Below are positions 3,223 to 33,044 of a stretch of 64,000 nt of DNA, one piece after another (positions within the stretch are counted from its first letter, which is position 1; every line of letters starts with the position of its first letter). The notes below the pieces were generated by a model. That model saw only the letters and a program-made list of their open reading frames with translations. It did not search any database and was not told where the DNA came from. The stretch spans positions 1-64,000 of the forward strand of contig JANSYR010000020.1 in assembly GCA_024742285.1 (NCBI GenBank), written 5' to 3'. Both the position numbers and the translations under genes were made by a program. The DNA is from a bacterium. GTDB lineage: Bacteria > Myxococcota_A > UBA9160 > UBA4427.

Positions 3223-3573
3223 ATGCGGCGACACCCCCGAATCCCTGCTCTGATCGCGAGCCTGTCAGCGTGCGCCGCGCTCGCCCTCCCCTCGACCGCA
3301 GTCGCCGACGTCTCGATCGAAGCCCAGGGCCGCTTCACCCGAACCGGCCCGAAGCAGGTCCAGTCTGAGTTCAACGGCCGCCCGATCGATGGCGCCGCCG
3401 TGGAGCGCCCGTCCGGTCGGACGCTGACCGCGCGTGGCCGAAGACTGCACGCCCAGCCGACGCAGCGCGTCTCGGTTGGGATCATCGGCTGCCCGGGGTG
3501 TACCGAGGCGCTCGAAGCGGTTGGGGGGGTTGTGGTGGATGGGCGTAGGATGAAGGCCCGCCGCCCCCGATAG
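3223..3573 (+). CDS. small secreted hypothetical protein
   Basis: 116 residues. The ATG at 3223 follows GAGGAA at about 8 bases. The N-terminus is a credible Sec signal peptide: MRRH, then a hydrophobic run PALIASLSACAALAL and a cleavage-like STAVA-D. The mature part is short, basic and carries a CPGC motif near residue 87, possibly a redox or metal CxxC. I recognise no family. It is divergent from the acyl-CoA dehydrogenase operon and stands at the left edge of the AT-richer block. The C-terminal tail is Arg-rich and could be over-extended. Moderate confidence that it is a real gene. Confidence 0.45.
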   Translation: MRRHPRIPALIASLSACAALALPSTAVADVSIEAQGRFTRTGPKQVQSEFNGRPIDGAAVERPSGRTLTARGRRLHAQPTQRVSVGIIGCPGCTEALEAVGGVVVDGRRMKARRPR

Positions 3574-3728
3574 ACCGCGTCCGCGCCCTCGCTCCCCGAG
3601 GGATTCGAAGCCAAGGCCTAACTTGCTGATTGAAACCCACCTGAACTTGTTCCGTGGAGATACTGGGCCGTGACGCTTGCGCGCTCGAACCAATGTGGCG
3701 TTCAAGCGGAGCAGACGGGGAGCCCATC

Positions 3729-6700
3729 ATGCCGACGCTCGGATTCGATGACTTTGAAATCGACTTGGATCTATTCACGCTCACAAGGGGCGGCGTGCAG
3801 CTGGAGATCGGAGCGAGGCCGCTAAATGCCCTCATCTATCTGATCGAGAACCGACACCGAATAGTGAATCGAGAGACGCTTCGCGAACGAATCTGGAAGG
3901 GCGCTGAAGTCAGCGCATCGACGATTCCAACCTGCATCATGTCGATTCGGCAGGTGTTGACAGACGACCCCAAGAACCCCCGGTACATAACGTCTCACCG
4001 AACGCGCGGCTACCGCTTCATTGGCGCAGTTCGTGGCATAGGCCTAGCCACGGTCGCGGACACACGCGCCCAGCTTGAACGAATTCCGTTTGTGGGTCGA
4101 GAAGCTGAGATGAGTCGACTTCACGCAGCTTGGCGCAAGGTGCGAGTATCCGGGATCGGACGACTAGTGCTGGTGTCCGCCGAGGCTGGCATGGGCAAGT
4201 CTCGCCTACTCGAGGAATTCAGCGCCACGGCCTCGGTCGAAACACCAACGTATTCGACACGAGCCGCGCCCTCGGAAGGTGCCCTCCCCTTCCTACCGTG
4301 GGCGAACCTCCTCCGAAAAGCGGTCGCTGATTCAAGCTCGGGGTCAGACGTCGAGCGTTTCGCGCGAGCGCTAGGGGACGACATTCCCGAACTCGGCCTG
4401 CGACCATCAGAAGACGCCGGTGCTGATCGTACGCGACGCGTGAACTCGTTCAGACGATGGACCTCTGCGATCTGCGCGCTCAGCGAGAGGGGGCCCGCTG
4501 TACTTCTTATCGACGACATTCATCGACTCGACCACGACTCTCTTCTGCTGCTGTACTGGATCGCAGACGAACTAGACAGAACCCCACTATTCGTCATCGC
4601 GACGACACGCCCCAGGCCCGCATCGCAGGCGACGTCAGATCTAATCGCCGACATCGCAGACCTGCAGCTTTGCTCCCAACTCTCAGTGAGCCCACTAGAG
4701 CCCCCCGACGTCGAGACGCTGCTCGACCCTCTTGGGGACGATATCCCCTCAGTCGCGAAGAGCCTCGTTGCCCAGACCAACGGCAACGCGTTCTACGTTA
4801 CGCACCTAATCCGAAGCCTCTCGGCCCTGTCTTCATCGAGCAACCGAGGATTCAGCTTGGATGGACTCCCACTACACGCTCGTGAGATCGTCGCAAGGCA
4901 ACTATCGGACCTACCACGCCTCACGCGCACGGCCTTAGAAGCGGCATCAGTGCTCGGGGATCGTTTCGGCCCGGAGGCACTCTGCAAGACGGCCGGCTTC
5001 GACCTCGCAGATGCGCTCGACTATCTGCAGCCGGCAGTCGATGCATGGATACTCAGAGAACAGAGTGGGACGTTCATGTTCAATCACTCGATCCTCAGGG
5101 AATCCCTGTACAGGACGTTTCCGCCGCTCGATCGTCGGCGAGCGCACCTACGATATGCCGAACATCTGAAGGGCGCACCTAGCTCCAATCCCATAGCTGC
5201 GGAAGTTGCCCACCATCTCACACAGGCCTTGCCGGTCGGTGATGCAGCAGAAGCAATGGAGGCCACGCTTCAAGCTGCCGCACAAGCATCACAGCGCCAT
5301 GCGTACTCGGAGTCGAAGCGCCTCCTTGAACAAGCAGTCGAGATCCACGACCGCAATCACCTTCCCCAAGAGCCTCGGGAACGCGTCGGCCTACTCATCG
5401 AGCTCGCCCAGGCGACTCTCTATTGTGGCGACCGCGAGTCGGCGCGCGCAATCCTGCTCGACGCCGCGGACATCGCTCGATCGGCAGGCGATTCCAAGGC
5501 TATCGCCACTTGCGCGCTTTCTCTCGCACCCGATTTCTTAACGATCGAGTTCGGCGTCCAGGACACGGCACTTATTCGACTCATCGAGGAATCTCTCGAA
5601 TGCCTCGACCCAGACGACGAGGAGACCCGCGCGCTGCTTCAGGCTCGCCTTTCACTTGCAACCCAATGGAGCCAGGCCCCTCCGGCAAGAGACGAGCTGG
5701 CCGCTTCTGCTCTCTCGGCCGCAAGGAAGACCGGATCCAGGCACGCAGAGATTGGCGCACTTGCGGCCCTAGCGGAGACGCTAAATGGCCCCAGTAACGC
5801 CAGTAGACGATTACGGACCTGTAACGAACTGGAGAAGCTGTCGATCGACGTCGGCGACATCCCATCAACGCTCCTGTGCCATACGCGAAAGATCGCCGCC
5901 CTTTTGGAGATCGGCGACATCTCGAGTATCCGAACTGAGAACGCACTTCACAGAGAACTCGCATCACGGTACCAGCTTCCCCAGTACGGATGGCTTTCGA
6001 TCGCTATCGACAGCATGCTGTCAGCGCTCGCTGGCGACCTTAGGCAGGCGGAATTGCTGGCAAGCGAGTATGTGCTGGTGGCGAAGAACAACCACGACAT
6101 GAATGTCTTTCTGACATTCGCCGGGCAACGCGCATCATGGCAGCTTGAGCGAGACCAACCAGAACTTATCGTCCCGGTTGTCCGGTCTCTTTCCGCCGCG
6201 CAGCCGACAGTCATGTTCTGGAAGGCCCTGTTGATCTGGTCGCTGGCACTCTCCGGAAGCGGCGCAGAAGCTCACGGACAGCTAGAAGCCTTCGACAGCG
6301 AGTGCATGCGCAGACTGTCCTCAGAGCCAGGTGGCGGATTGGGAATCGCGGTGCTCGGGGAAGCGGCTGCAACGTGTGGGTCGCCACAGGTCCGATCGCG
6401 GCTAATCGACCACCTCGAGCCACTCTCGGAGCATTCTGCTTCCGCGGGATACGGCGTCACCTACTTCGGCTCGTTCGCGCGATACCTGGGTGCTCTTCTA
6501 CGGGAACAGCAAGACTTCCGTCGTGCTCGCATGTACCTCCAGAATGCAGTGACGGAGGAAAGGGAGCGATACGCGCCGTCGTGGCACATGTACGCGCTTG
6601 CAGAGCTACTCAAGAACGAGATCGCCGCTGGCGCCGATTTCTCTGAGCTGGCCGAGCAGGCTCGCGCGGTTCTATGCGAGTACGATCGGCTCGCCCTGCC

Positions 6701-6746
6701 GCGTGCGAAACGACTTCTCGGTACAGCACTACAGATTGCAGCCTAG
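3729..6746 (+). CDS. winged-helix DNA-binding STAND/AAA ATPase regulator with helical-repeat C-terminus
   Basis: 1005 residues from the ATG at 3729, which follows GGGAG at 8-12 bases; the extra 25 residues from 3654 look non-genuine. Residues 4-100 form an OmpR/CadC-type winged helix ending in TSHRTRGYRFIG, the typical recognition-helix/wing segment. A receptor-like ATPase begins at FVGREAEM (121-128) with Walker A AEAGMGKS (151-158) and Walker B LLIDDIH (259-265). About 550 residues of Ala/Leu-rich helical repeats (TPR-like) follow. This layout fits signal-integrating transcription activators of the MalT/SARP-like STAND class, with the DNA-binding domain at the N-terminus. Its stop lies 7 bases from the stop of the facing sensor kinase gene, so the regulator and the operon converge. 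Base and codon use match the operon rather than the flanks. Ligand and target are unknown; the adjacent operon is the obvious candidate target. Confidence 0.88.
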   Translation: MPTLGFDDFEIDLDLFTLTRGGVQLEIGARPLNALIYLIENRHRIVNRETLRERIWKGAEVSASTIPTCIMSIRQVLTDDPKNPRYITSHRTRGYRFIGAVRGIGLATVADTRAQLERIPFVGREAEMSRLHAAWRKVRVSGIGRLVLVSAEAGMGKSRLLEEFSATASVETPTYSTRAAPSEGALPFLPWANLLRKAVADSSSGSDVERFARALGDDIPELGLRPSEDAGADRTRRVNSFRRWTSAICALSERGPAVLLIDDIHRLDHDSLLLLYWIADELDRTPLFVIATTRPRPASQATSDLIADIADLQLCSQLSVSPLEPPDVETLLDPLGDDIPSVAKSLVAQTNGNAFYVTHLIRSLSALSSSSNRGFSLDGLPLHAREIVARQLSDLPRLTRTALEAASVLGDRFGPEALCKTAGFDLADALDYLQPAVDAWILREQSGTFMFNHSILRESLYRTFPPLDRRRAHLRYAEHLKGAPSSNPIAAEVAHHLTQALPVGDAAEAMEATLQAAAQASQRHAYSESKRLLEQAVEIHDRNHLPQEPRERVGLLIELAQATLYCGDRESARAILLDAADIARSAGDSKAIATCALSLAPDFLTIEFGVQDTALIRLIEESLECLDPDDEETRALLQARLSLATQWSQAPPARDELAASALSAARKTGSRHAEIGALAALAETLNGPSNASRRLRTCNELEKLSIDVGDIPSTLLCHTRKIAALLEIGDISSIRTENALHRELASRYQLPQYGWLSIAIDSMLSALAGDLRQAELLASEYVLVAKNNHDMNVFLTFAGQRASWQLERDQPELIVPVVRSLSAAQPTVMFWKALLIWSLALSGSGAEAHGQLEAFDSECMRRLSSEPGGGLGIAVLGEAAATCGSPQVRSRLIDHLEPLSEHSASAGYGVTYFGSFARYLGALLREQQDFRRARMYLQNAVTEERERYAPSWHMYALAELLKNEIAAGADFSELAEQARAVLCEYDRLALPRAKRLLGTALQIAA

Positions 6747-6753
6747 TCGAGCA

Positions 6754-9474
6754 CTAGATCGGCGCGTACGGAATACGAAGCTCGAAGCGCGCGCCACCGA
6801 GGGCAGATTCGGTGACGAGGAGGTCTCCGCCGTGCTCTCGCGCAACGCGACGTGAGACGGATAACCCCAGCCCCGTTCCCGTGCCAGCAGCCTTGTCAGT
6901 TGCAAATGGCTCGAAGAGTCGATCTTGCATCTCGGGCGACACCCCGGATCCGTTGTCGTCCACGCATACAGTCACATAGTCGCCGACCGGTCGCAGCGCC
7001 AAGCTGATACAACCAGTGTCGTCTGCAACCGCGTCCCCCGCGTTCTTCAGCAGATTCAAGACGACCTGCGAGATTGCCGAGCGATCCGCGTTCACGGCCG
7101 GCAGCTCTTCAGATACCAACAACTTGAGAGAGACTCCACGCTCGCGGAACGCCGGAAGAACAAGAGCAGCGGTCGACTCTACACAGTCTCGAAGGTCCGT
7201 CCTTTCAACTTCCCCGCGACCAGGAGAGGCGAAGTCGCGCAAATCGCCCACCAAAGACTGTGTTCGCTCAAGCCCTTCAAGAACGATCTCGCCGAGTTCC
7301 ACAATCACGTCCGTGGTCGCGGACAGGTCTACTTCGTCAAGACCGTCACCGGGCGTGCCTCCGTCGGCCGCGAGGTGTCGCTTGGTCGCCTCCGCAAGCT
7401 GCGTCGCAAGATCTTCGATTTCGCGACGCATCGTCCTGACCGCGTTTATCGCGAAGTTCACAGGGTTGTTTACTTCGTGCGCGATTCCGGCAGCCAACTC
7501 GCCAACCGCCGCAAGTCGCTCCGCTTCGACCAGCTGAGCTTCGGCCGCCTTCAAATCATCGAGCGTAGACTGCAGCTGGTCGTTCCGCTCCTCAAGCGCA
7601 ACCTGAAGAGTCCGCACCTTTACGAGCCCCCGCACACGAGCCAGAAGCTCTTTCGGATGGAAGGGTTTGGTCACATAGTCGTCGGCCCCGAGTTCGAGAC
7701 CGCGGATCTTCATCTCGTTCTCCGCCTTCGACGACACCAGCATCACGGGCACGCGGGAGATTTCGTCGTCCGACTTGATGGCCTCACAGAGCTCGGTGCC
7801 AGACATCTCCGGCATCATGATGTCCGTAACGACCAGGCTTGGTGACAGCTGCTTCGCGAGCTCGAACGCCTCGGCGCCGTTTCGGGCAAGCGAAACTGAG
7901 AACTCTTTCGACAGTAGGAAGTGAAGCAACTCTCTCATATCGGAGTTGTCGTCAGCAACGACGATCCTGGGACGGCTCCGGTCAGCGTGGGAATCCAAGA
8001 CCGGATCGCTCCCAACCAGTCCCTCCCGCGAGGCCCACCTGTCGATTGTCCGCGCGGCGTCTAGAGCGATTCCGCCCGCCTCGAAGACACCTTCTCCCGC
8101 GGCTGCCGACGGAGGCGAAGCAGCATCCCTATCGTCGTCCACAAGGACCTGTTCCTCGATCTCGTCAGGCTCGCCGTAAGGAATGGTAAAACTCATCCGC
8201 GTGCCAAACCCGACACCTGCACTCTCCGCCCAGATCTGCCCCTCATGAAGCTCAACGAGCTCTCGTGCAAGCGCTAGTCCGATTCCTGTCCCTTCATGTT
8301 CTCGTGTTGCTGACCCGTCGACCTGGGCAAACCGATCAAAGACCCGATCAACGTCCTCAGCTGCAAGTCCGATTCCTGAGTCTCGACAATGGAAAACCAC
8401 TCCTTCCTCATCCGGGTCAGGTCCGATCTCGACGACCACCTCACCCCCCGAAGGCGTGAACTTGAGCGCATTTCCAACAAGATTGACGACAACCTTCTCG
8501 AGCGCGTCAACGTCGACACAGGCGAGTGCCGGGCTGCCCGAAGACTGCAATGAGAGATCGACCCCTTTGCTCTCGGCCATTGGCCTAGCGCCTTCGACTA
8601 TCGGTTCGACGATACTCCGGAGGTCGAGTTCACGACGGACAACGGAGAAGCGATCGCTCTCTAGCTTGGCCAGATCAAGCAGATTGTTGATCAGCTTCAA
8701 CAAGCGCTGACCATTGACGTGCATGGTCTGAAGCGTGCGATCCGCAGTTGCCGAGAACTCGCCATGATCGCCGGCAAGCATCGACTCGAGCGGAGCGAGC
8801 ATGAGCGTCAGCGGAGTACGGAGTTCATGATGAACGTTCGCGGAGAATCGGTCTTTCGCTTCGTCGAGGGAGGCAAGCTCGTCCCGAGCGGCCTCGATCT
8901 CCTTCCGCTGCTCGAACGTGACCACTCGAGTCTTTGAAAGGTAGTTGCAGCTGAACGCACTCTCGAGAGCGCCGGAGAGAATGAAGATCATTTGGATCAC
9001 GAAAGCGCGCTGATCGAAAGCTGCAGGGGAGAGTGCTGTGGCAGCAACGAATCCCGAGACACAGAAGGTCGAGACGCCAACAGACCCGCGCACCGTGATC
9101 GGTTGAAGGACTGGCATGCCAACCAGCACGAAGATCAAACCCGCGAAGTATAGGGAGTCTGCGCGATCGACCGCGTAGACCATCCCAAGGATCTCCGCGG
9201 CGACTGCGCCGCAGACGGCAAGCTGGCAGAAGTTCGGGGAAGCGAATCGCCACTTCAGCAGGACGCCGACGACGAATACGTCGACCACGAACCTCAAGAT
9301 AAAGAAGAAGGCGAAGTGATCCCGGAACGCCCAGTAGTCGAGGCCAACCCAAGCAACTTGACAGGTCAGGATGAAGGCGCACGTGCCCTTGAGCTGCTCG
9401 ACAGCCGCGTCGTGCCCTTCAGCTCTCCAGTAGGCGTCATGCCTGTCTGCCCAACTGCGCTCAGCGTGATCCAT
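6754..9474 (-). CDS. membrane hybrid sensor: histidine kinase - receiver - second histidine kinase
   Basis: 906 residues. Several hydrophobic segments between about 30 and 178 anchor it in the membrane (for example ILRFVVDVFVVGVLL and FVIQMIFILSGAL). First kinase core: H-box VHHELRTPL with His216, N-box NLVGNALKF (331-339) and GTGIGLALA. A receiver follows with acidic pair VADDN (506-510), phosphoacceptor Asp551 in VVTDIMMPEMSG and Lys603 in VTKPF. A second, NtrB/HWE-unlike kinase has H-box AAGIAHEVNNP (His666) and GTGTGLGLS. There is no DNA-binding output, so the signal must leave through phosphotransfer or a separate regulator. It is the last gene of the operon, 34 bases after the MMPL exporter gene. 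Two complete transmitters in one chain is unusual. Confidence 0.92.
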   Translation of the reverse strand: MDHAERSWADRHDAYWRAEGHDAAVEQLKGTCAFILTCQVAWVGLDYWAFRDHFAFFFILRFVVDVFVVGVLLKWRFASPNFCQLAVCGAVAAEILGMVYAVDRADSLYFAGLIFVLVGMPVLQPITVRGSVGVSTFCVSGFVAATALSPAAFDQRAFVIQMIFILSGALESAFSCNYLSKTRVVTFEQRKEIEAARDELASLDEAKDRFSANVHHELRTPLTLMLAPLESMLAGDHGEFSATADRTLQTMHVNGQRLLKLINNLLDLAKLESDRFSVVRRELDLRSIVEPIVEGARPMAESKGVDLSLQSSGSPALACVDVDALEKVVVNLVGNALKFTPSGGEVVVEIGPDPDEEGVVFHCRDSGIGLAAEDVDRVFDRFAQVDGSATREHEGTGIGLALARELVELHEGQIWAESAGVGFGTRMSFTIPYGEPDEIEEQVLVDDDRDAASPPSAAAGEGVFEAGGIALDAARTIDRWASREGLVGSDPVLDSHADRSRPRIVVADDNSDMRELLHFLLSKEFSVSLARNGAEAFELAKQLSPSLVVTDIMMPEMSGTELCEAIKSDDEISRVPVMLVSSKAENEMKIRGLELGADDYVTKPFHPKELLARVRGLVKVRTLQVALEERNDQLQSTLDDLKAAEAQLVEAERLAAVGELAAGIAHEVNNPVNFAINAVRTMRREIEDLATQLAEATKRHLAADGGTPGDGLDEVDLSATTDVIVELGEIVLEGLERTQSLVGDLRDFASPGRGEVERTDLRDCVESTAALVLPAFRERGVSLKLLVSEELPAVNADRSAISQVVLNLLKNAGDAVADDTGCISLALRPVGDYVTVCVDDNGSGVSPEMQDRLFEPFATDKAAGTGTGLGLSVSRRVAREHGGDLLVTESALGGARFELRIPYAPI

Positions 9475-9508
9475 GCCGCCATCCTCATCGGCATGAAAGC
9501 AACGGCTC

Positions 9509-11737
9509 CTAAGTGCGGGTGCCTTTACCTACGAATCTTAGGAGCGCCGGCAATGCCACAACATCAAACACGAAGCAGAGAGCCATTACGACTGCCGTGA
9601 GCACGCCCAGGGTCTTAGTAAAGACGAAGCTCGAGAAACCCAAGACAGCGAAACCAACACCTACCGCGATTGTGGTAGTGAGAAGCGCGGGGAGCGCTGA
9701 CAGCGCGGCCGCCATCGGGTCGAGAGACTTTCGGGCAGCAGAGGCGACGTGGATCGTGTCGTCGACCGCGATGCCCAAGGCCAGGTTCACAACGAGAACA
9801 ACGCCTGCGTCTAGCGGCAGCCCGATAAGAGCGATCGCGCCGAATGCAATTGCCAACGGGGCGAGATTTGCTGCAAGAGCCGCCGCAGCTATCGGAAGAG
9901 AACGAAAGATCGCAAGAAGCACCAACGATATCGAAAGAACTGCCAGACCTGCCCCTCTGAGCTGACCGCTTACCACCTGTTCCTCTGCTCTCGCGAACTC
10001 GAACATCACTCCGGTCGCTCGAGCGCCGTAGTCGTCGGGGCCGTTCTCGTCCCACCAGTTCTCTGCGCGCTCCGCCAACCCAAGGAGGTTCCCGGAGCCG
10101 TTGTCGCCGACGCGCACCCTGATGTTCGCGCGGGTTCGATCTGCGCTGATCAGGTCCTCGATCTGCTCCTCGCTCTCAAGCAGAAGCAGGTATTGCTCGA
10201 CTTGCCCCCGACGTTCAATAGATGACGCGCCAGGCGAGTAGACTTCGTGAACCTGGCTGAGCGGATCGGCAATCGATACAACCTTCCCAACGCTGTGCTC
10301 AGACGAAAGAAATTCCGCGAGCGCACCAATCGACGAAATCACCTGAGGTTCTGTGACGGAACGGCCCTCAGGCGCTTCAATTACGACATTGATCGGCGAT
10401 ATCCCAGACAGTCGACTCCCGATCTCGTCATAGTCATCCCTAACGTTCGTGCCGCGCGGAAACCACTTAGTCACGTCAGTCTCTAGATTCAGCCTCGGAA
10501 GGGCAAGAGAGACGAGTGCGGCGGTCCCAAAGAGGAGAAGCAAGGCGACACCGGCGCGCGCGTTGGCCGCTCGAACGAAGTTCGCCGTTGCGAGGATCAC
10601 TCTTTCGGCGACTGGGTGTGACGCCAGAATGAGCGGCCACGACGACAGAACCGCGACCGGCAGAGTCAACGCCGCTGCTGTGATGCCCAGAGTTCCTATT
10701 GCGCCGAGAACCCCGACATCTCTGAGTGCTTCAATATCTGTCGTCGATATTGCCAGAAAGCCTATCGCCGTCGTCACCCCAGAGAGCGCGACCGGCAGCG
10801 CGATCGCTCTTGCTTGAGCGCGGCGGTCTTCAGCCACGGCCGAGCGAGCCATCGCGAAAACCACATGGGACGCATAGGCGCACCCCAAGGCCAGCAGCAC
10901 CGATGGGAGAATCATTGTCGAAAGACTTAGCGGGATCGAGAGAACGCTCATCGAGGCCAAGAGAACCGAACACCCCGCTACTCCAACGGCCATCGGAAGC
11001 AGCGCAAGTCGAGCGCTCCCAAAGACCACCGAGAACACGAGGAAGATTACGACCACGGTCGCGGCGCTGAAGCTGCTGACCTCCCTCGCTGTCCGAATGT
11101 TGATCTCCGTTCGAAAAATCGGCACTCCCGAAACGAAGACCTCTCCGCCGGCCTCCGTTGCGACGGATCGAACCTCGAGCACTATCGACTCAAATGTTCG
11201 ATCGGGCTCCGCGTCGAGATAAACGTTGATCGCAGCCGTTCTAGCGTCGTCGGAGATCAAGGATCGCGGCGCAATACGATCGAGTTCGACCTCGGCTCGA
11301 AGTCTCGCAACCTCTGATTCGGAACTGGGGAGGCCCTTCTCAAGCGCCGCGTCCAACAGCAGCTCACCGCCGTCGCCGGACCGAATGAGCGGGACGGAGG
11401 CAAGGCTATCTACTCGGCGTACCCCGGCGATCTCCTGGAGACGCTCCGTCATCACCTCCACTCGCGTCAGCAGGTCTCGCGAAAATGGCTCGGCCGTAGA
11501 AATCGCTACAACTAAGAGCTCGTCGCCCCCGAAGTAGTCGAGGCTCTCCTTGTAGAAGTGCCAGGGCTCTCCTTCACGGTCGAGAATCGCGTCGGTAGAC
11601 GTATCCACAGAAACGCGAGTCCCTAGCACTCCGCACGCCACGACGACCCCTAGCCAGAGCAGCAACCAAGCACGCGGAGAAGCGAATGCTGATGAGACTG
11701 CAAGACTGGGGAGTTCAGAACGATTGCTGCTGGTCAC
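9509..11737 (-). CDS. RND/MMPL-family exporter
   Basis: 742 residues, the size of MMPL/HpnN-type pumps. TM1 is near residues 24-40. A large periplasmic loop runs to about 220, then a bundle of hydrophobic helices (about 228-390). A second half repeats the plan: TM near 398-413, loop to about 570 and a bundle to about 735. Charged residues within the membrane segments (for example AVDDTIHVA) resemble the proton-relay motif of the superfamily. Members move lipids, hopanoids or hydrophobic metabolites across the cell envelope using proton motive force. It starts 19 bases after the stop of the PilZ-hydrolase-methyltransferase gene, which implies export of a product made by the upstream enzymes. 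No membrane-fusion or outer-membrane partner is present. Cargo unknown. Confidence 0.9.
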   Translation of the reverse strand: MTSSNRSELPSLAVSSAFASPRAWLLLWLGVVVACGVLGTRVSVDTSTDAILDREGEPWHFYKESLDYFGGDELLVVAISTAEPFSRDLLTRVEVMTERLQEIAGVRRVDSLASVPLIRSGDGGELLLDAALEKGLPSSESEVARLRAEVELDRIAPRSLISDDARTAAINVYLDAEPDRTFESIVLEVRSVATEAGGEVFVSGVPIFRTEINIRTAREVSSFSAATVVVIFLVFSVVFGSARLALLPMAVGVAGCSVLLASMSVLSIPLSLSTMILPSVLLALGCAYASHVVFAMARSAVAEDRRAQARAIALPVALSGVTTAIGFLAISTTDIEALRDVGVLGAIGTLGITAAALTLPVAVLSSWPLILASHPVAERVILATANFVRAANARAGVALLLLFGTAALVSLALPRLNLETDVTKWFPRGTNVRDDYDEIGSRLSGISPINVVIEAPEGRSVTEPQVISSIGALAEFLSSEHSVGKVVSIADPLSQVHEVYSPGASSIERRGQVEQYLLLLESEEQIEDLISADRTRANIRVRVGDNGSGNLLGLAERAENWWDENGPDDYGARATGVMFEFARAEEQVVSGQLRGAGLAVLSISLVLLAIFRSLPIAAAALAANLAPLAIAFGAIALIGLPLDAGVVLVVNLALGIAVDDTIHVASAARKSLDPMAAALSALPALLTTTIAVGVGFAVLGFSSFVFTKTLGVLTAVVMALCFVFDVVALPALLRFVGKGTRT

Positions 11738-11756
11738 AAAGTAGCTGGGCCTCGCA

Positions 11757-14207
11757 CTACTCTTCGGATCGTCTCGCTACTGCGAGCCACGCCTGTGCGG
11801 GTTCCCCGAAGACCGGGACGACCTCGAGAACATCTAGTCCAGCGGCAACTAGTATCCGCGAAAGCTCCACGTCATCCCAGAATTGGAACACACCTTGCTC
11901 CTCGAGGTCCAGAAGCCTTCCCGCGTCATTGATGAAGGTGCCAAGTGCTCTCGCAGCGGCAGCCTCTCCTTCTTCGCCGAAGGCACTAAGTGCTCGTCCT
12001 TCCCGCAGCTCCAGGACTCCGTCGACGCAGATTCGGGAAGTGTCCGCGTCCTTCCGAAGCGCGGATACCGCGAGGAGGCCGCCGACGCGCAGCAGCCGCC
12101 TCGCCCCGTCAAGCAACCGAATCGGATCTCGCACGTAGTTTATTACGAGAGACAACAACACGCGGTCAGCTACGCAGTCCCTTAGAGGTAGGCCGACGTC
12201 GCCCTCCGCCGGGCTCAGATCCGCCGAGATCCAGCTGCGACGATTGGCCGGCGATTCGGGGCGCCGAGACCTCGATCTCTTGAGCGCGTCTCGGACAAAA
12301 TCGACCTCAATGATCTTCGGAATGGCTTCTGGCGGTCCAGATTCGTCTAGGTAGCGAGCAAAAGATCCGATCCCACTTCCGAGATCGACAACTGTGTGCT
12401 CGCTTCGAATCTCCAGCGCGTCTGCCTGTCGACCCATCAGATCTCGGAAAGATCGAGTCTCGATCACGAGCTCCATACCTAGCGTCCCGTCGCGACCCAC
12501 CAGATAGTCACGCCAGAATCCGCGCACAGCTTCAGAGCTGGCCTCGAACTCCCTAAGTCTCCCGCGCTCGTTCCGTTGTCGTGCGCGCATTTCACGGTAG
12601 TCGGTACGACCTTCTACACTGGGAGCCCGGCCAGAGGAGAACCGAAATACCTCAGAGGCGACCCACTGAAATATCATCGCCGCTTCCTTGCTAGAACGAA
12701 GCTGATGACCCGTCTCGGCTACGACATGCCTACGATTCGAGGAATCGCCGAAGGAAAGCACATCGTCCACCCGGCGACGGTCCATCCATGCGTCGTGGCG
12801 CCCGGAGATCCAAGTCGTCGGCACCGAGACTCTCGCGAAATCTCGCCGAGAGTCTTCAAGAAAGGCGATTCGCTCCTCTAGTGCGTGCGAAGCCGTCCGA
12901 TCAATATCTAGTAGCAAGCCCTGAACGTCTTGTACCCCGAACGACACTCCAGCTTCGGCACCGCCCAGGTAGTCGACGCCCCCGGAAATCACTCGAATCA
13001 ATGACTGAGGATCCGTTGCGCCAACGACGCTTACCCAGCCGTCGAAAGCGTTGGTCTCGTCGTCTGCGAGAGCTCTTCTGGCCTCGACGGAGGCGACACT
13101 GAAGCTGACAACGAAGACTTTCGTGGCCCCTTGCTCGCGTCGAATGTACGAAGCGGCGCCGGCAAGGTCGACAGCCCCCTGAGAGAAGGTGTAGTTCAAG
13201 TTCCCCAGATGGGGCTCGGCACATTCAGGGTCGTTGTGTGACTCCCCACGTTTCCGAACTCCGTCGAAACGCAACACTCGCAGCGGTAGTCCCTCAGCCT
13301 CGAACTGAGCGACAAGCGCCCGCGCGAGGGGTAAGAGCGTTTCCTTCGTCTTACCCCAAGCGGACGGAATCACGACAGCAGGACATTGGGTTGGGCAGTT
13401 GGCTGTCTCGTCTAGAAGCCCCACCACCGGTTCGCCTTGGGCGTTTAGGAAGCCAACCACGCATGGGACAGCAGGAACTGAGCTTGTCCGCTCCGCTGAA
13501 TAGCCTCGCCTGAGGTCGCCAAAGACCTCGTCGAAGTCTTCCGCGTTCGGCGCGACTGAGGGACGTCTGGGATACACAGCGAGACCGACGCGACAGCGTC
13601 TGGAACCGATCCGCGAATCGTCCACGCTGCAAACGGTCGCAAACGGTCTGATCTCCGATCTCTCCTCGACGACCACGAACTCGTCGCCGACACCGGTGGA
13701 CTGGCCCTCGTCGAGTTCAACGCCAAGTCCGCCGCCCGACTCGTCGACCACCCGAGCCTCAAGCGCACCGGCACCGGACTCGCCGGGGCGAACGAGTCGA
13801 ATCCTCCTCCAACCTGGCGCGTCTCGTCGGATTCGGTCTCGCCGCTCAGAGCGATAAACGACGCGAGGGGTAGAGGCTAACACCGTGACGTCTCCGCTAC
13901 GTCCAGAGTCATCCGCCGCGACCATCAAAGAGAAGAAGTGCGGAACGTGACGTACGTACCCCGAGAGAAACAGCGCCTCGCCGATTTTCCCGAAGTTCCG
14001 GCACCGGACGCGAAGCTGCGAGTCGTCGACGGACTCGATAACCGCTTCTTCTCGCTCCACTGCCCGATTCGTCCCCCGCGATAGCAGGGTTCCTTGGTCG
14101 CGGAGAGACAGGAGAATACTTCGGATCTCTTGGGGGTCCGTGATGGCAACGGGGTGGAGCCGATCGAACACCTCCGGCGCCAGCACCTCGGCGACCGGCG
14201 AACTCAT
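11757..14207 (-). CDS. PilZ (c-di-GMP) - LuxD-like alpha/beta hydrolase - SAM methyltransferase fusion
   Basis: 816 residues. Residues 1-110 look like a YcgR/PilZN-type beta domain. The PilZ core has the arginine motif RSERRDRIRR (119-128) and DESGGG (155-160), which fits D/NxSxxG; these are the c-di-GMP contact motifs of the family. Residues about 245-525 form an alpha/beta hydrolase whose nucleophile region VVSFSVAS (Ser370) resembles the AxSxS pattern of LuxD acyl-transferases rather than GxSxG. Candidate partners are Asp472 (SGRHDAWMD) and His501 (AETGHQL). From about 535 there is a class I methyltransferase with motif I VVDLGSGIG (606-614). The start codon overlaps the radical SAM stop (ATGA, 14204-14207), showing translational coupling. 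The likely role is nucleotide-controlled acyl transfer/hydrolysis plus methylation of a product exported by the MMPL pump. Domain calls are made by eye; the reaction is not known. Confidence 0.85.
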   Translation of the reverse strand: MSSPVAEVLAPEVFDRLHPVAITDPQEIRSILLSLRDQGTLLSRGTNRAVEREEAVIESVDDSQLRVRCRNFGKIGEALFLSGYVRHVPHFFSLMVAADDSGRSGDVTVLASTPRVVYRSERRDRIRRDAPGWRRIRLVRPGESGAGALEARVVDESGGGLGVELDEGQSTGVGDEFVVVEERSEIRPFATVCSVDDSRIGSRRCRVGLAVYPRRPSVAPNAEDFDEVFGDLRRGYSAERTSSVPAVPCVVGFLNAQGEPVVGLLDETANCPTQCPAVVIPSAWGKTKETLLPLARALVAQFEAEGLPLRVLRFDGVRKRGESHNDPECAEPHLGNLNYTFSQGAVDLAGAASYIRREQGATKVFVVSFSVASVEARRALADDETNAFDGWVSVVGATDPQSLIRVISGGVDYLGGAEAGVSFGVQDVQGLLLDIDRTASHALEERIAFLEDSRRDFARVSVPTTWISGRHDAWMDRRRVDDVLSFGDSSNRRHVVAETGHQLRSSKEAAMIFQWVASEVFRFSSGRAPSVEGRTDYREMRARQRNERGRLREFEASSEAVRGFWRDYLVGRDGTLGMELVIETRSFRDLMGRQADALEIRSEHTVVDLGSGIGSFARYLDESGPPEAIPKIIEVDFVRDALKRSRSRRPESPANRRSWISADLSPAEGDVGLPLRDCVADRVLLSLVINYVRDPIRLLDGARRLLRVGGLLAVSALRKDADTSRICVDGVLELREGRALSAFGEEGEAAAARALGTFINDAGRLLDLEEQGVFQFWDDVELSRILVAAGLDVLEVVPVFGEPAQAWLAVARRSEE

Positions 14208-15397
14208 CGAGATTCGAGGCGCCGCGTACGATGCAACGGGGACCAGACGAACTGCTCCCAGTAGGATTCACAGATCTCGACCCAAGTGCGGATCTCTTCC
14301 TGGCGGATGAACTCGCGGACATTCACCATTAGCCAACTGTGGACAGCCTGCGAGTCGCGACAGCTCTTGCAATCGCCGGAGGTGCAGCAGAAGGCGACGC
14401 TCTCAGTATCCGCCGCGAAGGCATTGAAACCCGGCAGAACGGGCTTCCCGTTCTTTAGTCGGTCAGCGTGGTCGGGATGTGAAACGCTGATGCTCGGGCA
14501 CTCGTCGTAGCCAAACATTCCCCATTCGGTGCGACCCGTAATCAATGCGCGCGAGTAGTACGGATGAGAGAGAACGGTGTCGGGATACTTCTGAGTTACG
14601 CGCAAGACCTCGTCAAGAAGACGAGTCTCGATATCGCGGCTTGAGTCGCTGGGACCTGAAGAGCCGTAGTCCGAGTAGTAGTTGAAGGACACGACGTTTC
14701 CATTGTCCGCGATACGAGAGATTGTCTCGTCGATTAGATCGGGCCTGTGAACGTCGAGCGCGTAGATAAAGGTTGCGCGGGAGTCGCCGCGATAGTTGGC
14801 TAGCGCGGTGTCGAACAACCCCTCGAACCGTTTTCCGTTCGGCGCGATAGCCCTCAAGCGATCGTCTTCGCCGACGCCGGAAAAAAGCGTCAGTGCGATA
14901 GCGACGTTCTCGAATCCGTCGCGAGGAAGCGGCCGAAGCCCGTTCGTGGAGATCGTCACGAACTCCATCGCGTCCTGGAAGGCTTCGACCCGCTCCGGAT
15001 GTAACGTTGGCTCGCCGCCGATAAGCAACGCGGCCGTCACGCCGTCCGTAGCCTGCTCCTTAGCGAACAACCTCCACCGCTCTAGGCTCGGTGGCTCAGA
15101 AGTCCGTCGATCAAAATCCTTGGCGAAGAACCAGCAGCCATCGCACCGGATGTTACAAGCGTTGGTCAGATGGTATTCCGAACTCCGGACCTGGGCGCTT
15201 ATCTGCCGCACGGTGTCGAAGCGCGAGCGAAGCCCAGGTTCATCGAGAAGATCGGCGAGCCGCTTCCTTCGCGGTCGTGCACTTGCTCCGGGTCGCACCA
15301 AGAATCTCCATGAAGGTCGGCCGCCAACAGCCTGAAATCCACAACGCAATTGCTCAACGGAAAAACCACATTGTAGATAGGATTTAACCCTAACCAC
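14204..15397 (-). CDS. radical SAM protein with extra C-terminal cysteines
   Basis: About 397 residues if started at the GTG at 15397; the true start may be one of several in-frame GTG/TTG codons downstream, because the first 60 residues are not conserved-looking and no strong ribosome binding site is seen. The radical SAM cluster motif CNIRCDGC (Cys81, 85, 88) is followed by GGEPTLHPE (the GGE motif) and STNGLRP, as in SPASM-type enzymes. Near the C-terminus CCTSGDCKSC (Cys337, 338, 343, 346) and an earlier Cys in YDECPS could ligate an auxiliary Fe-S cluster. First gene of the four-gene operon, coupled by ATGA to the PilZ fusion. The substrate could be a peptide or a small molecule; no precursor peptide gene was found next to it. 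Confidence 0.88.
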   Translation of the reverse strand: MVRVKSYLQCGFSVEQLRCGFQAVGGRPSWRFLVRPGASARPRRKRLADLLDEPGLRSRFDTVRQISAQVRSSEYHLTNACNIRCDGCWFFAKDFDRRTSEPPSLERWRLFAKEQATDGVTAALLIGGEPTLHPERVEAFQDAMEFVTISTNGLRPLPRDGFENVAIALTLFSGVGEDDRLRAIAPNGKRFEGLFDTALANYRGDSRATFIYALDVHRPDLIDETISRIADNGNVVSFNYYSDYGSSGPSDSSRDIETRLLDEVLRVTQKYPDTVLSHPYYSRALITGRTEWGMFGYDECPSISVSHPDHADRLKNGKPVLPGFNAFAADTESVAFCCTSGDCKSCRDSQAVHSWLMVNVREFIRQEEIRTWVEICESYWEQFVWSPLHRTRRLESR

Positions 15398-15452
15398 AAC
15401 GTCGTTCTAGCATACCCGAAACCAAGAATTCGGATAATTCAGAGCGATCGAA

Positions 15453-15473
15453 GGGATTAACCCACGGGATAAC
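15453..15473. promoter_or_regulatory. tandem direct repeat upstream of the radical SAM operon
   Basis: Two near-identical words, GGGATTAAC and GGGATAAC, lie 4 bases apart in the AT-rich gap between frdD and the radical SAM gene, about 55-75 bases upstream of its longest start. The position suits a binding site for a tandem-dimer regulator such as a winged-helix protein. Sequence observation only; function is inferred. Confidence 0.3.
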
Positions 15474-15547
15474 TGAAAGGTGCGGGCCTAGGGGCCGGTG
15501 CCCTCGATGGCCCCCTCATCTCCGCGGAGAAGATGTCATCCGCCCAG

Positions 15548-15922
15548 CTAGATCCCCGCCACAGCCCCGATCCCCATCACGCTTCCAACGATCGCGATGA
15601 GGTAGAGCACGGTGCCGACCAGCGGGTCGCGCTCGCCGCCACCCAGGTCGACCAGGAGCGAGCGAACGTGGTGCGCGCCCTTCCAGAGCGGCAGCACGAG
15701 AAGCGCGGCGAGCAGGAGCTGCGCGACCGGGATTCCCAGGAGGCTCGCGGTGAAGAGCTCCTGCGCGCGGACGTAGTTGAGGTTCATGGGATCCACGATT
15801 CCCAGGGGCATCAGGATTCCGATGACCAGGATCCAGCCCGTCATGAGCATGGTTCCGATCATGATCCCCTGGCCGAACATGAACCAGATGATGGGCTCGA
15901 GCTTGAGAAGAAGAGTGCGCAT
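15548..15922 (-). CDS. frdD: fumarate reductase membrane anchor subunit D
   Basis: 124 residues with three hydrophobic helices. The segment LLVLPLWKGAHHVRSLLVDL matches the FrdD pattern PLW-x-G-x-HRxHH-x3-DL of the heme-free quinol:fumarate reductase anchor. With FrdC it holds the catalytic FrdAB at the inner face of the cytoplasmic membrane and forms the quinone site. It is the last gene of frdABCD, 46 bases after frdC. The length matches the family (about 115-125). I see no terminator with a T-run behind it. Confidence 0.9.
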   Translation of the reverse strand: MRTLLLKLEPIIWFMFGQGIMIGTMLMTGWILVIGILMPLGIVDPMNLNYVRAQELFTASLLGIPVAQLLLAALLVLPLWKGAHHVRSLLVDLGGGERDPLVGTVLYLIAIVGSVMGIGAVAGI

Positions 15923-29404: not shown

Positions 29405-31162
29405 GTGGACGAACGGACGATCTACGCCTTTGGCACGATTTTCGTGGTCTCGATCGCGTTCCTCTCCGCCTTCTACGGGAAGGGGAACGGCGGGCGGTCG
29501 TGGGCGATCGCGTGGACGAGCCTGGTCGTGTCGGGCGCGAGCCGGACCTTCGTCGACGCCTCCCCGCTCCTCGTCCCCGCCTACACGGTCTTCGGCTCGA
29601 TCTTCTCGCTCCTCCTGCTCCACGGCTCCTGGCGCTTCAGTCGCGGAGACGCCCGCCTGCCCCGCGCCGCGACGGTCGCTCTGCTCCTCGCGATCCCCCT
29701 CCGGATCCTCGCGCACCCCCATCTCAGCGAGCTCGCGAACCGCGCCCTCGGCTCGGCGCTGTGCACGGTGTGCGTGGTGCTCTCGTGCGCGCTGCTGCTC
29801 GATTCGCGGTCGCGACGCGTGTCTCCGTCGGCCCGCGCGCTGGGGTTCGCCTTCCCGACCATCATCGCCGTCTCCTGGGTGGACGGCATGGCGCCATGGC
29901 TCGGCATCGCGAACCAGACGGGGATCGCGCTGTGGTTCGCGGACGGGGTCGCGATCGCTGCCGTCAAGCTGAGCGCCTTCCTCTCGCGCCAACGCGAAGC
30001 CGCCGCCGCCCTTCACGCAGAGCTCGCCAACCACCTCCGAGCCATCGTCGAGAACTCGACGGATCTCGTCGCCGAGATCGACGAGAGTGGGACGATCCTC
30101 TACGCGAATCGGGCCCATCGAACCGTCCTCGGCCTGGACCCTGCCGAGGTGGTCGGCCTCCCCCGCACGGCGATCGCGATCTCGCCGAGCGCGGACGAAC
30201 TCGCCGAGGCCGGGATCGAGCTCGACCCGGACGAGGACATGATCTTCGTCGCTCACAATCGGGACGACGGACGTGCCGTTACGCTCGAGTGCAGCTTCCA
30301 CCGCGTCCGCGGCGCGTCGGGCGAGATGCGAACCGTCATCATCAGCCGCGACATCACCGAGCGGGCCGCCAAGGAACGCCACCGCGAAGAGCTCAACACC
30401 CGCCTCGAAGCCCTCGTCGAGTCGAGAACCGAGGAGCTCGGCGAATCCCTCCGCCAGCTCCAGGAGGCGAACCGCCTGGCTTCGCTCGGCACGATGGCCG
30501 CGGGGATCGCGCACCAGATCAACAACCCGATCGGCTCGATCCAGATGGGTGCCGAGTTCGCCCTCGCGACGCCGGAGGACGCCCCGGATCAACGCGATGC
30601 CTGGCGACGCGCCCTCGAGAACGCGATCGAGCAGGCCCAACGCTGCGGCCGGATCGTCTCGAGCATGCTCCAGTTCGCCCGCAACGAACCCACCAAGCGG
30701 AGCCACGAAGACCTCGCGGCGATCGTTCGCCGATCCTGCGACACGACGGAGGCCTATGCCGAGGCGCGCAATGCGCGAATCGAGACCCGCGGCCTCGACC
30801 TCTCGCTTCCCGTTCACGCGAGCGCGATCGAGCTCGAGCAGGCGTTCCTCAACCTGATTCGGAACGCGTGCGAATCGTCGAATCAGCCCCACGTGGTCGT
30901 CGTGACCGCGAGAAACGACGGCGAAATCGCGACCGTCACGATCTACGACGATGGCCGCGGAATTCCTCAGGAGACGATCGACCGCGTCCTCGATCCATTC
31001 TTCACGACGCGACTCGAGGCCGGCGGAACCGGCCTGGGACTCTCCGTCGCGCACGGTGTGATCTCTGACCACGACGGGCAACTCACGGTCGAGAGCACCC
31101 CGTCGAAGGGGACGACCGTCACGGTCACGCTTCCGCTCGAGAGCGACGCTACGCGGGACTGA
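29405..31162 (+). CDS. membrane PAS-domain histidine kinase (tandem paralogue 1)
   Basis: 585 residues from the GTG at 29405, chosen because its N-terminus aligns with the first residues of the downstream paralogue, whose start has a strong ribosome binding site. Six or seven hydrophobic helices fill residues 5-195 (for example IYAFGTIFVVSIAFL). A PAS domain is at about 213-320 (AIVENSTDLVAEIDE), then coiled coil, H-box AAGIAHQINNP with His370, N-box NLIRNACESS and GTGLGLSVAHGV. The H-box type (HQINNP) is the NtrB-like class. No response regulator is adjacent, so it is an orphan kinase. It is 100 bases upstream of a close paralogue. Confidence 0.9.
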   Translation: MDERTIYAFGTIFVVSIAFLSAFYGKGNGGRSWAIAWTSLVVSGASRTFVDASPLLVPAYTVFGSIFSLLLLHGSWRFSRGDARLPRAATVALLLAIPLRILAHPHLSELANRALGSALCTVCVVLSCALLLDSRSRRVSPSARALGFAFPTIIAVSWVDGMAPWLGIANQTGIALWFADGVAIAAVKLSAFLSRQREAAAALHAELANHLRAIVENSTDLVAEIDESGTILYANRAHRTVLGLDPAEVVGLPRTAIAISPSADELAEAGIELDPDEDMIFVAHNRDDGRAVTLECSFHRVRGASGEMRTVIISRDITERAAKERHREELNTRLEALVESRTEELGESLRQLQEANRLASLGTMAAGIAHQINNPIGSIQMGAEFALATPEDAPDQRDAWRRALENAIEQAQRCGRIVSSMLQFARNEPTKRSHEDLAAIVRRSCDTTEAYAEARNARIETRGLDLSLPVHASAIELEQAFLNLIRNACESSNQPHVVVVTARNDGEIATVTIYDDGRGIPQETIDRVLDPFFTTRLEAGGTGLGLSVAHGVISDHDGQLTVESTPSKGTTVTVTLPLESDATRD

Positions 31163-31262
31163 TTTCACCTCTGCCTAGCAGCATCCCTTCGGCTCTACGC
31201 CGTCGCGGTTGAGATCCGGTGCCGCTTCTCGATATCTTTCGGGTCGAGTTCGGGGGGAAGAC

Positions 31263-33044
31263 TTGAGCGAGCGCTATTTTCTCGTCGTGGGGGCGATCTT
31301 CCTGATCGCGCTCGCGACTGCGATGACGCGATTGGGTCGGGGCCGGGGCGGGGCGGCCTGGGCGGCGGCGTGGACGTGCCTCTACGTGTCGGGTCTCGCG
31401 TCGACGCTGGAAGCCGATTATCCGGTCGTCCGCCCGCTCGTGCCTTTCTTCGGCACCTGCTTCGCCGCCCTGCTCTTCTACGGTGTCGGCCTCTTCACGG
31501 AACGCTCCCAGCGCTATGTCCCGAAGCTCATTGCGGCGACGCTCGCGGTCTCCATCGCCCGCGTAGTCGTTCGCCCCTTCATCTCGGAGGGCGCGAGCCA
31601 GCTCCTCGGATCCGTCGTGATCATCGCGGGCGTCGTCGCCTGCTGCCTCACCCTGCTCTTTCCCAGGGGCCGCGATCACACGCTCTGGGAGCGCGGTCTC
31701 GCGATCGGCTTCCCGGCGATCGCGGTCGTCTCCGGCTACTACTCGTGGAGCAAGTACGCGGGCGTGCCCGTGCCCCCTGCGATCCTCGGTTGGCTGGTCA
31801 CCGGCATCCTGATGGGCAGTCTCAAGACCGGCGCCTTCATCGCACTCGCCACCGCCCGACTCGAGTCCCTCCAAAAGGAAGCGACCCGATCGATCGCCGT
31901 GCGAGACGAGTTCGCCGCGCGCTATCGCGAAGTCACCGAGCAGGCGAGCGACATGATCAGCGAGCTCGATGCCCACGGAACGATCCTCTACGCGAATCCG
32001 GCGCACGAAACGGCCCTGGGCATCCCCGCCGACCGCCTGATCGGCCGGGACGCCCGCTCGCTCGCGTTCTCCGGGCCGCAGGGCGCCGTGTACGGACCGG
32101 ACGCCGAGCGCAACGACGGCCAGACGCAGATCTTCATCGTGCGACACGCGGACGGTCGGCCCGTCACACTCGAGGCCGTGTTCCGCCGATTCGTCGGACT
32201 GGACGGCCAGGAGCGAATCGTCCTCACCAGCCGCGACGTCACGGCGCGCGTCGCCGACGAACGCGAGCGGGAGGCGATCCGCAAGGAACTCGAGGACCTC
32301 GTCCAGAGTCGGACCGACGAGCTCCGGAGCTCGATCCACGCCCTCGAGGAGGCACAGCGCCTCGCGTCCCTCGGCACGATGGCTGCAGGAATCGCGCACC
32401 AGATCAACAATCCCGTCGGCTCGATCCTGATGAGCGCCGAGTTCGCCCTCGGCGCGGAGAACGACGATCCGAACCGGGAAGAGGTCTGGCGGGACGCGCT
32501 CGAGAACGCCTTCGATCAGGCTCGCCGCTGTGGCCGGATCGTCTCGAGCATGCTCCAGTTCGCGCGCAACGAGCCGACCGAAAAGCGGCCCGAGGATCTG
32601 GGCGCCATCCTTCGTCGCGCGTGCGAACTGACGGAGCGCTACGCCTCGGCGCGGGGAACGACGATCGACGCCGGCTGCGTCACGGGTTCGCTCCCGATCG
32701 TGGGCAGCGCGATCGAACTCGAGCAGGCCTTCCTCAACATGCTGCGCAACGCCGTGGAGGCTTCGCGACGGGGACAGACGATCCGCGTGAGCGCCCGTCG
32801 GACCGCGCGCCACGCGATCGTCCAGATCGCCGACGAGGGCAAAGGCATGCTGCCCCACGAAGTGGACCAGGTCCTCGACCCCTTCTTCACGACCCGGCTC
32901 GAGGCCGGCGGGACGGGGCTCGGCCTCTCCGTCGCGCACGGAGTGATCACCGACCACGAAGGCATCCTCGCGATCGAGAGCACACCCGACGTCGGCACGA
33001 CGCTGGGCGTGACGCTTCCGCTCCTCGCCGGGGCTCCCGCCTAG
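31263..33044 (+). CDS. membrane PAS-domain histidine kinase (tandem paralogue 2)
   Basis: 593 residues from a TTG at 31263, preceded by GGGGGGAAG at about 6 bases. N-terminal membrane domain of similar helix plan to the upstream gene (residues 5-195), PAS at about 222-330, H-box LASLGTMAAGIAHQINNP with His379, N-box MLRNAVEAS and GTGLGLSVAHGV. Many short runs are identical to the upstream kinase, most of all around the H-box and the C-terminal ATPase, while the PAS and membrane parts differ more. This indicates tandem duplication with divergence of sensing. Its stop overlaps the lumazine synthase stop on the other strand. Confidence 0.9.
   Translation: MSERYFLVVGAIFLIALATAMTRLGRGRGGAAWAAAWTCLYVSGLASTLEADYPVVRPLVPFFGTCFAALLFYGVGLFTERSQRYVPKLIAATLAVSIARVVVRPFISEGASQLLGSVVIIAGVVACCLTLLFPRGRDHTLWERGLAIGFPAIAVVSGYYSWSKYAGVPVPPAILGWLVTGILMGSLKTGAFIALATARLESLQKEATRSIAVRDEFAARYREVTEQASDMISELDAHGTILYANPAHETALGIPADRLIGRDARSLAFSGPQGAVYGPDAERNDGQTQIFIVRHADGRPVTLEAVFRRFVGLDGQERIVLTSRDVTARVADEREREAIRKELEDLVQSRTDELRSSIHALEEAQRLASLGTMAAGIAHQINNPVGSILMSAEFALGAENDDPNREEVWRDALENAFDQARRCGRIVSSMLQFARNEPTEKRPEDLGAILRRACELTERYASARGTTIDAGCVTGSLPIVGSAIELEQAFLNMLRNAVEASRRGQTIRVSARRTARHAIVQIADEGKGMLPHEVDQVLDPFFTTRLEAGGTGLGLSVAHGVITDHEGILAIESTPDVGTTLGVTLPLLAGAPA

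Follow-up and report, generated by a model that had tools for sequence, protein, structure and literature searches.

Near the start of a 64,000-nucleotide stretch of a bacterial genome (GTDB Myxococcota_A; hereafter the window) lies a block of five genes that raises two questions: what the encoded proteins do together and how the block came to sit where it does. A sequence-only reading had described an AT-richer transferred module that makes and exports a possibly lipid-like compound under c-di-GMP and two-component control. The features of the block are as follows, PAM being our label for the PilZ/LuxD-type/methyltransferase fusion protein.

3654-15397: five-gene block, GC 0.599
3515-15549: extent of the putatively exchanged segment, the edges being the end of DNA similarity to congener G004 (blastn)
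3654-6746, plus strand: wHTH + STAND regulator (Pfam Trans_reg_C + AAA_16); the open reading frame opens with GTG at 3654, the likelier start, inferred from congener proteins, being ATG at 3729 (3729-6746)
6754-9474, minus strand: HK-REC-HK sensor kinase (Pfam; catalytic residues kept in homologues)
9509-11737, minus strand: MMPL/RND exporter, HAE3-like (PF03176 above cut-off)
11757-14207, minus strand: PAM, a fusion of YcgR/PilZ, LuxD-type acyl-thioesterase, and SAM methyltransferase (profile, predicted fold, motifs)
14204-15397, minus strand: accessory radical SAM enzyme (PF04055)

The layout is as first described: the regulator and kinase genes converge with 7 bases between their ends, and within the four-gene operon the radical SAM and PAM genes overlap by 4 bases, followed by gaps of 19 and 34 bases. 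No promoter or terminator was detected when the region upstream of the operon was scanned. The visibly lower GC and deviant codon use also hold up when computed. The GC of the block lies below that of the left (0.664) and right (0.685) flanks, and none of 119 equal-length windows of the same genome (mean 0.6895, sd 0.0122, minimum 0.631) is as low. The GC3 of the block genes is 0.64-0.68 vs 0.888 ± 0.041 in 170 baseline genes, and all five score below every one of these 170 in codon adaptation. Pfam bears out the domain calls for the regulator (Trans_reg_C/AAA_16), the kinase (HisKA/HATPase/REC/HK), the MMPL protein, the methyltransferase, and the radical SAM enzyme. It misses the PilZ and LuxD-type parts of the fusion in this copy, both of which are instead shown by profile, motifs, fold, and homologues.

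PAM consists of a YcgR/PilZ part (about residues 19-230), a LuxD-type alpha/beta hydrolase (about 249-525), and a SAM methyltransferase (about 560-816) with the motif D608xGxG. Profile comparison pairs its N-terminus with PP4397 (2gjg), a YcgR-type protein, over profile positions 19-230, and this part carries both PilZ motifs, R123xxxR127 and D155xS157xxG160. Across 28 homologues, R123, R127, and G160 are present in every sequence, D or N155 in 27, and S157 in 26. For the AlphaFold model (pLDDT 84.8), the top PDB structure by Foldseek is LuxD of Vibrio harveyi (1tht; E 8e-14, TMt 0.80), and the triad Ser370, Asp472, and His501 is invariant in the 28 homologues. PF02273, the LuxD-family acyl transferase, is under cut-off in the PAM of the block (P0004) and over it in an Aminicenantes homologue (L075), in which a receiver, PilZ, and methyltransferase also exceed their Pfam cut-offs; PF07238 (PilZ) is over cut-off in L028 as well as L075. 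Among 5.39 million open papers searched, none joins PilZ, LuxD, and methyltransferase. PAM appears to be an unreported three-part enzyme that is probably switched on or off by c-di-GMP; with at least 16 GGDEF domains encoded in the genome, this second messenger is plausible in the host. The fusion of a LuxD-type domain to a methyltransferase, near desaturases and cyclopropane synthases at other loci, points to a fatty-acyl product, so that the lipid-like compound first suggested is probably correct; the methyltransferase could, however, act on another group than the fatty acid. At L075:9062-12598 and similar Aminicenantes loci, PAM bears an extra N-terminal receiver domain and could therefore itself be a target of phosphorylation.

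Of 97 related genomes, 29 encode PAM, with identities mostly between 36 and 47% and 30% in the two most distant. These 29 loci have as neighbors an HK-REC-HK kinase (27), an MMPL protein (24), and a STAND regulator (9); genes of the block do occur together in many genomes. Of the two loci that lack the kinase, one (L030) lies at the end of a contig and the other (L026) has a truncated PAM beside masked sequence. A scan of named genomes, in which a single-protein query gave no match and an alignment-based query did, places PAM in Myxococcota-type MAGs, Thermoanaerobaculia, and many Aminicenantes. At all 21 of the more distant loci that extend well past PAM, 20 of them from Acidobacteriota, the next gene downstream is HK-REC-HK. 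MMPL is absent from some loci, including most of those in Acidobacteriota. Gene calls in relatives came from a simple codon-model script, and several contigs were short. The invariant core is PAM plus HK-REC-HK, and the five fixed members of the sequence-only reading are not supported. Kinases are common, and part of the adjacency could reflect ordinary feedback. Two short contigs filed as Acidobacteriota (L050, L058) carry a PAM close to that of the window; they are perhaps mis-binned, since they are short and their samples also hold Myxococcota MAGs. Plasmid sequences gave no match for PAM or for the kinase sensor region.

The kinase has about six hydrophobic segments followed by an HK unit (phospho-acceptor His216), a receiver (Asp551), and a second HK unit (His666), with these three residues retained in 31-32 of 32 homologues. 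The second unit is composed of HisKA and HATPase and has no HPt. Elsewhere in the window, positions 29405-33044 hold a tandem pair of similar histidine kinases (585 and 593 aa). For the exporter, the best NCBIfam match is TIGR00921, below its cut-off; MMPL proteins often carry lipids. The regulator combines wHTH, STAND ATPase, and helical repeats, and is found at the same site in congeners G001, G004, G005, G006, and G008 with 34-41% identity, the six genus regulators forming one clade with support 100.

Encoded at 2 of 30 PAM loci (the window and G032), the radical SAM enzyme is an infrequent accessory. It has the motif C81xxxC85xxC88, a PF04055 score of 35.4 bits vs a cut-off of 29.5, a C-terminal CC...C..C cluster, and a structure model of low confidence (pLDDT 51). 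Relatives with 56-59% identity lie beside PAM only in G032 and occur without PAM in G041 and G059. Identity as a prokaryotic viperin was rejected (30.7 bits vs an NCBIfam cut-off of 180). At L126:4698-7360, the gene for a distantly related radical SAM protein, which has a comparable Cys cluster at its C-terminus, adjoins an acyl-CoA synthetase gene.

Other synthases and tailoring enzymes stand in the place of PAM and the radical SAM enzyme at related loci. At the window's own site, the congener G005 has the following:

L150:9947-10945: short PhcB-like methyltransferase in PAM's place
L150:11394-12272: divergent SCD-type desaturase in the place of the radical SAM enzyme

The label "PhcB-like" rests on the 'KPxGYxGD' methyltransferase family, which we take to include proteins annotated for 3-hydroxypalmitic acid methyl ester biosynthesis (PhcB); the match to the NCBIfam fatty-acid O-methyltransferase Mtf2 is weak (E 0.003). 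Four further genomes (G068, G063, G019, and G094) have, in the position of PAM, a shorter fusion of PilZ and methyltransferase that bears the signature 'KPxGYPGD' and whose neighbors include a cyclopropane synthase and MMPL (neither in G094) and/or HK-REC-HK. The PilZ part of one of the four is over the Pfam cut-off, the rest being just below it or unseen. PilZ + PhcB-like fusions lie at L167:7773-10135, L168:3057-5458, L169:8458-10826, and L170:8674-10305, mostly followed by a cyclopropane synthase gene, and would constitute a second c-di-GMP-linked synthase type. Desaturases stand next to the synthase at L024, L025, L046, and L150, a cyclopropane synthase type adjoins it at L039 and L167, and LolA-like proteins are encoded near PAM at L022 and L027. 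PhcB-like matches on plasmids are mainly rhizobial. On an Enterobacter ludwigii plasmid (L182:2619-5756), a type I polyketide synthase ends in a C-terminal PhcB-like methyltransferase domain, which suggests release as a methyl ester, and on a conjugative plasmid of Pseudanabaena PCC 7367 (L181:5959-8578) a PhcB-like methyltransferase adjoins a sensor kinase and a response regulator.

How the block reached its present place can be read from the congeners. Its site is bordered by a pair of acyl-CoA dehydrogenase genes on one side and by frdDCBA (fumarate reductase) on the other. There, G004 carries a regulator, kinase, MMPL, PAM, and desaturase; G005 carries the PhcB-like version; G003 has the kinase at a contig end; G001, G006, and G008 have the regulator only; and G002 has unrelated genes beside frd. 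Between the window and G004, flanking proteins are 89-98% identical vs 37% for the regulator, 46% for the kinase, 38% for MMPL, and 36% for PAM, and blastn gives 79% up to 3514, 85-90% from 15550, and one 107-base match inside. Similar flanks, divergent block proteins, and sharp edges look like the outcome of a cassette exchanged at a resident site. A low cassette GC3 is shared by the genus and several other families, whereas most of the window's own family does not show it. Vertical inheritance of a fast-evolving locus under relaxed codon selection, with no transfer or exchange, would also lower GC3 and is consistent with two observations: the HK tree broadly tracks families, with the window, G004, and G005 inside their own on long branches, and module GC3 falls below that of the flanks in several other genomes too. 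This origin is nonetheless doubtful given the contrast with the G004 flanks, the sharp edges, and the rejection of the window and G004 PAM as one clade (p-AU 6e-5).

Of the transferred module first proposed, a lateral history of at least the synthase part stands, whereas an unattached five-member unit is not supported, the site and the STAND regulator being resident in the genus. The composition is atypical and the PAM phylogeny lateral, as for a mobile island, with the HK tree alone being less clear; no integrase is present among the genes, and no tRNA edge or convincing edge repeats were seen. Taken together, the comparisons speak more for repeated replacement of cassettes at a resident site than for one arrival, with accelerated evolution possible. 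Divergent cassette versions at a fixed site would fit diversifying selection on a signal/receptor locus.

In other families, the locus has the order epimerase, dCMP deaminase, regulator, PAM, MMPL, HK-REC-HK, REC-GAF-HK, and TolB_N-like protein. A remnant of this arrangement lies on another contig (C2) of the window's own genome:

L175:5567-10270: ancestral-locus remnant with epimerase, dCMP deaminase, REC-GAF-HK (52%), and TolB_N-like gene; core missing

The remnant has normal GC3 and a short gap at the expected core position, and five congeners show a similar one, in which REC-GAF-HK is 78-91% identical. This arrangement suggests that the core moved away from its old place, its position in the genus now being the frd site. 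REC-GAF-HK is not a dedicated partner, because it is kept in congeners without a cassette, and the dCMP deaminase and epimerase encoded near PAM in relatives were judged housekeeping neighbors of the ancestral site.

From the computed domains, motifs, catalytic residues, conserved neighborhood, and site exchange we infer a substrate, product, export cargo, ligand, and mode of regulation, in which (i) the LuxD-type domain of PAM would remove an acyl chain from its carrier (acyl-ACP or acyl-CoA), (ii) the fused methyltransferase would modify the freed acid, a fatty-acid methyl ester being the simplest outcome, (iii) synthesis would be gated by c-di-GMP on the YcgR/PilZ part, with the Aminicenantes receiver domain adding phospho-control, (iv) tailoring of the chain would fall, where such enzymes are present, to a desaturase or a cyclopropane synthase, and in this block to the radical SAM enzyme, (v) the product would be exported by MMPL, (vi) the membrane HK-REC-HK would sense it and relay phosphate, possibly to the REC-GAF-HK at the ancestral locus, and (vii) the STAND regulator would govern the cassette. 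Both c-di-GMP and two-component control, as first suggested, are encoded in the block. That one kinase architecture stays constant even across synthase types suggests a synthase paired with its own receptor. Given the LuxD/methyltransferase chemistry, this pairing, the PhcS-PhcR design, and the DSF linkage, the chances appear evenly balanced that the block is a Phc/DSF-like synthase-exporter-sensor system with a fatty-acyl, perhaps methyl-ester, signal and a c-di-GMP-gated synthase.

The same genes could instead form an operon that makes and exports a lipid for the cell's own envelope (a surface lipid, wax, or modified fatty acid), with the two-component system as an envelope sensor and no cell-to-cell signal. 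The LuxD-type domain, the desaturases, cyclopropane synthase, and LolA-like protein, the HAE3-type MMPL near the core, and the frequency of lipid transport by MMPL proteins are all compatible with such a role. It is nevertheless rather unlikely, as the part invariant across phyla is the synthase and kinase without the exporter, the kinase is retained when the synthase type changes, and the divergence and swapping of cassettes at one site are easier to reconcile with a signal and its receptor than with a structural lipid. A picture close to the sequence-only one, a specialized-metabolite cluster built around the radical SAM enzyme and gained whole from a distant donor, is much less probable still. 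The low GC and odd codons accord with it, as does the pairing of the window PAM with G032, another genome in which the radical SAM gene is present, and with a contig listed under Thermoanaerobaculia. Against it, the radical SAM gene is rare at PAM loci and occurs apart from them, the core genes persist throughout the order, the site has a resident regulator, and no precursor peptide or mobility gene was seen.

On the Phc/DSF-like reading, a broader proposal can be made tentatively, at somewhat less than an even chance: an undescribed quorum-sensing family across Myxococcota and Acidobacteriota whose synthase is itself the c-di-GMP receptor, so that the messenger would directly gate how a fatty-acyl signal is released and methylated, and whose whole cassettes are swapped at a fixed site to change signaling type. 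If so, intracellular c-di-GMP and extracellular fatty-acyl signals would be joined in one protein, and a candidate cell-cell language would be at hand for uncultured Myxococcota and Aminicenantes. PAM would be a concrete, expressible enzyme for testing.

The block is closer to Phc and DSF, as synthase-plus-sensor-kinase fatty-acyl signaling, than to an anonymous biosynthetic cluster. By sequence or fold, it has the YcgR/PilZ motifs, the LuxD fold with its triad, and the radical SAM CxxxCxxC with PF04055. Like YcgR/PilZ receptors (PP4397, 2gjg), PAM has the YcgR-N + PilZ order and both predicted c-di-GMP-binding motifs; unlike them, its output is an enzyme rather than a flagellar brake. With the myristoyl-ACP thioesterase LuxD of Vibrio, the predicted PAM structure shares the fold and a Ser-Asp-His triad of similar spacing, but the domain is fused to PilZ and methyltransferase, and no luxCE reductase is encoded at the locus.

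A physical link joins synthase, receptor, and c-di-GMP in the DSF systems (RpfF/RpfC/RpfG, RpfF/RpfR; PMC6361424). An acyl-ACP-derived fatty-acid signal made by thioesterase chemistry, a membrane hybrid kinase (RpfC), and the c-di-GMP link would be common to both. The block, on the other hand, has no crotonase-type RpfF (no enoyl-CoA hydratase family match by Pfam), no HD-GYP, and, in place of the HPt of an RpfC-type HK-REC-HPt, a HisKA + HATPase unit, and c-di-GMP would act on the synthase itself. The Phc system (phcBSRQ, Ralstonia/Cupriavidus) is marked by the LysR-type target PhcA and a 3-hydroxy fatty-acid methyl ester signal. As in the block, a methyltransferase synthase with an expected fatty-acyl product stands beside a membrane HK and a REC-HK. 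PAM differs in adding PilZ and LuxD-type domains, and the block in fusing its kinase parts in one chain, adding an MMPL exporter and a STAND regulator, and lacking PhcQ and PhcA (no LysR gene is present at the locus). A putatively PhcB-like enzyme takes PAM's place in sister cassettes. The published PhcS-PhcR design is an HK followed by a REC-HK (PMC2842291; PMC8578825), and this domain order, a membrane HK and then a REC-HK without a DNA-binding domain, is matched by the kinase of the block.
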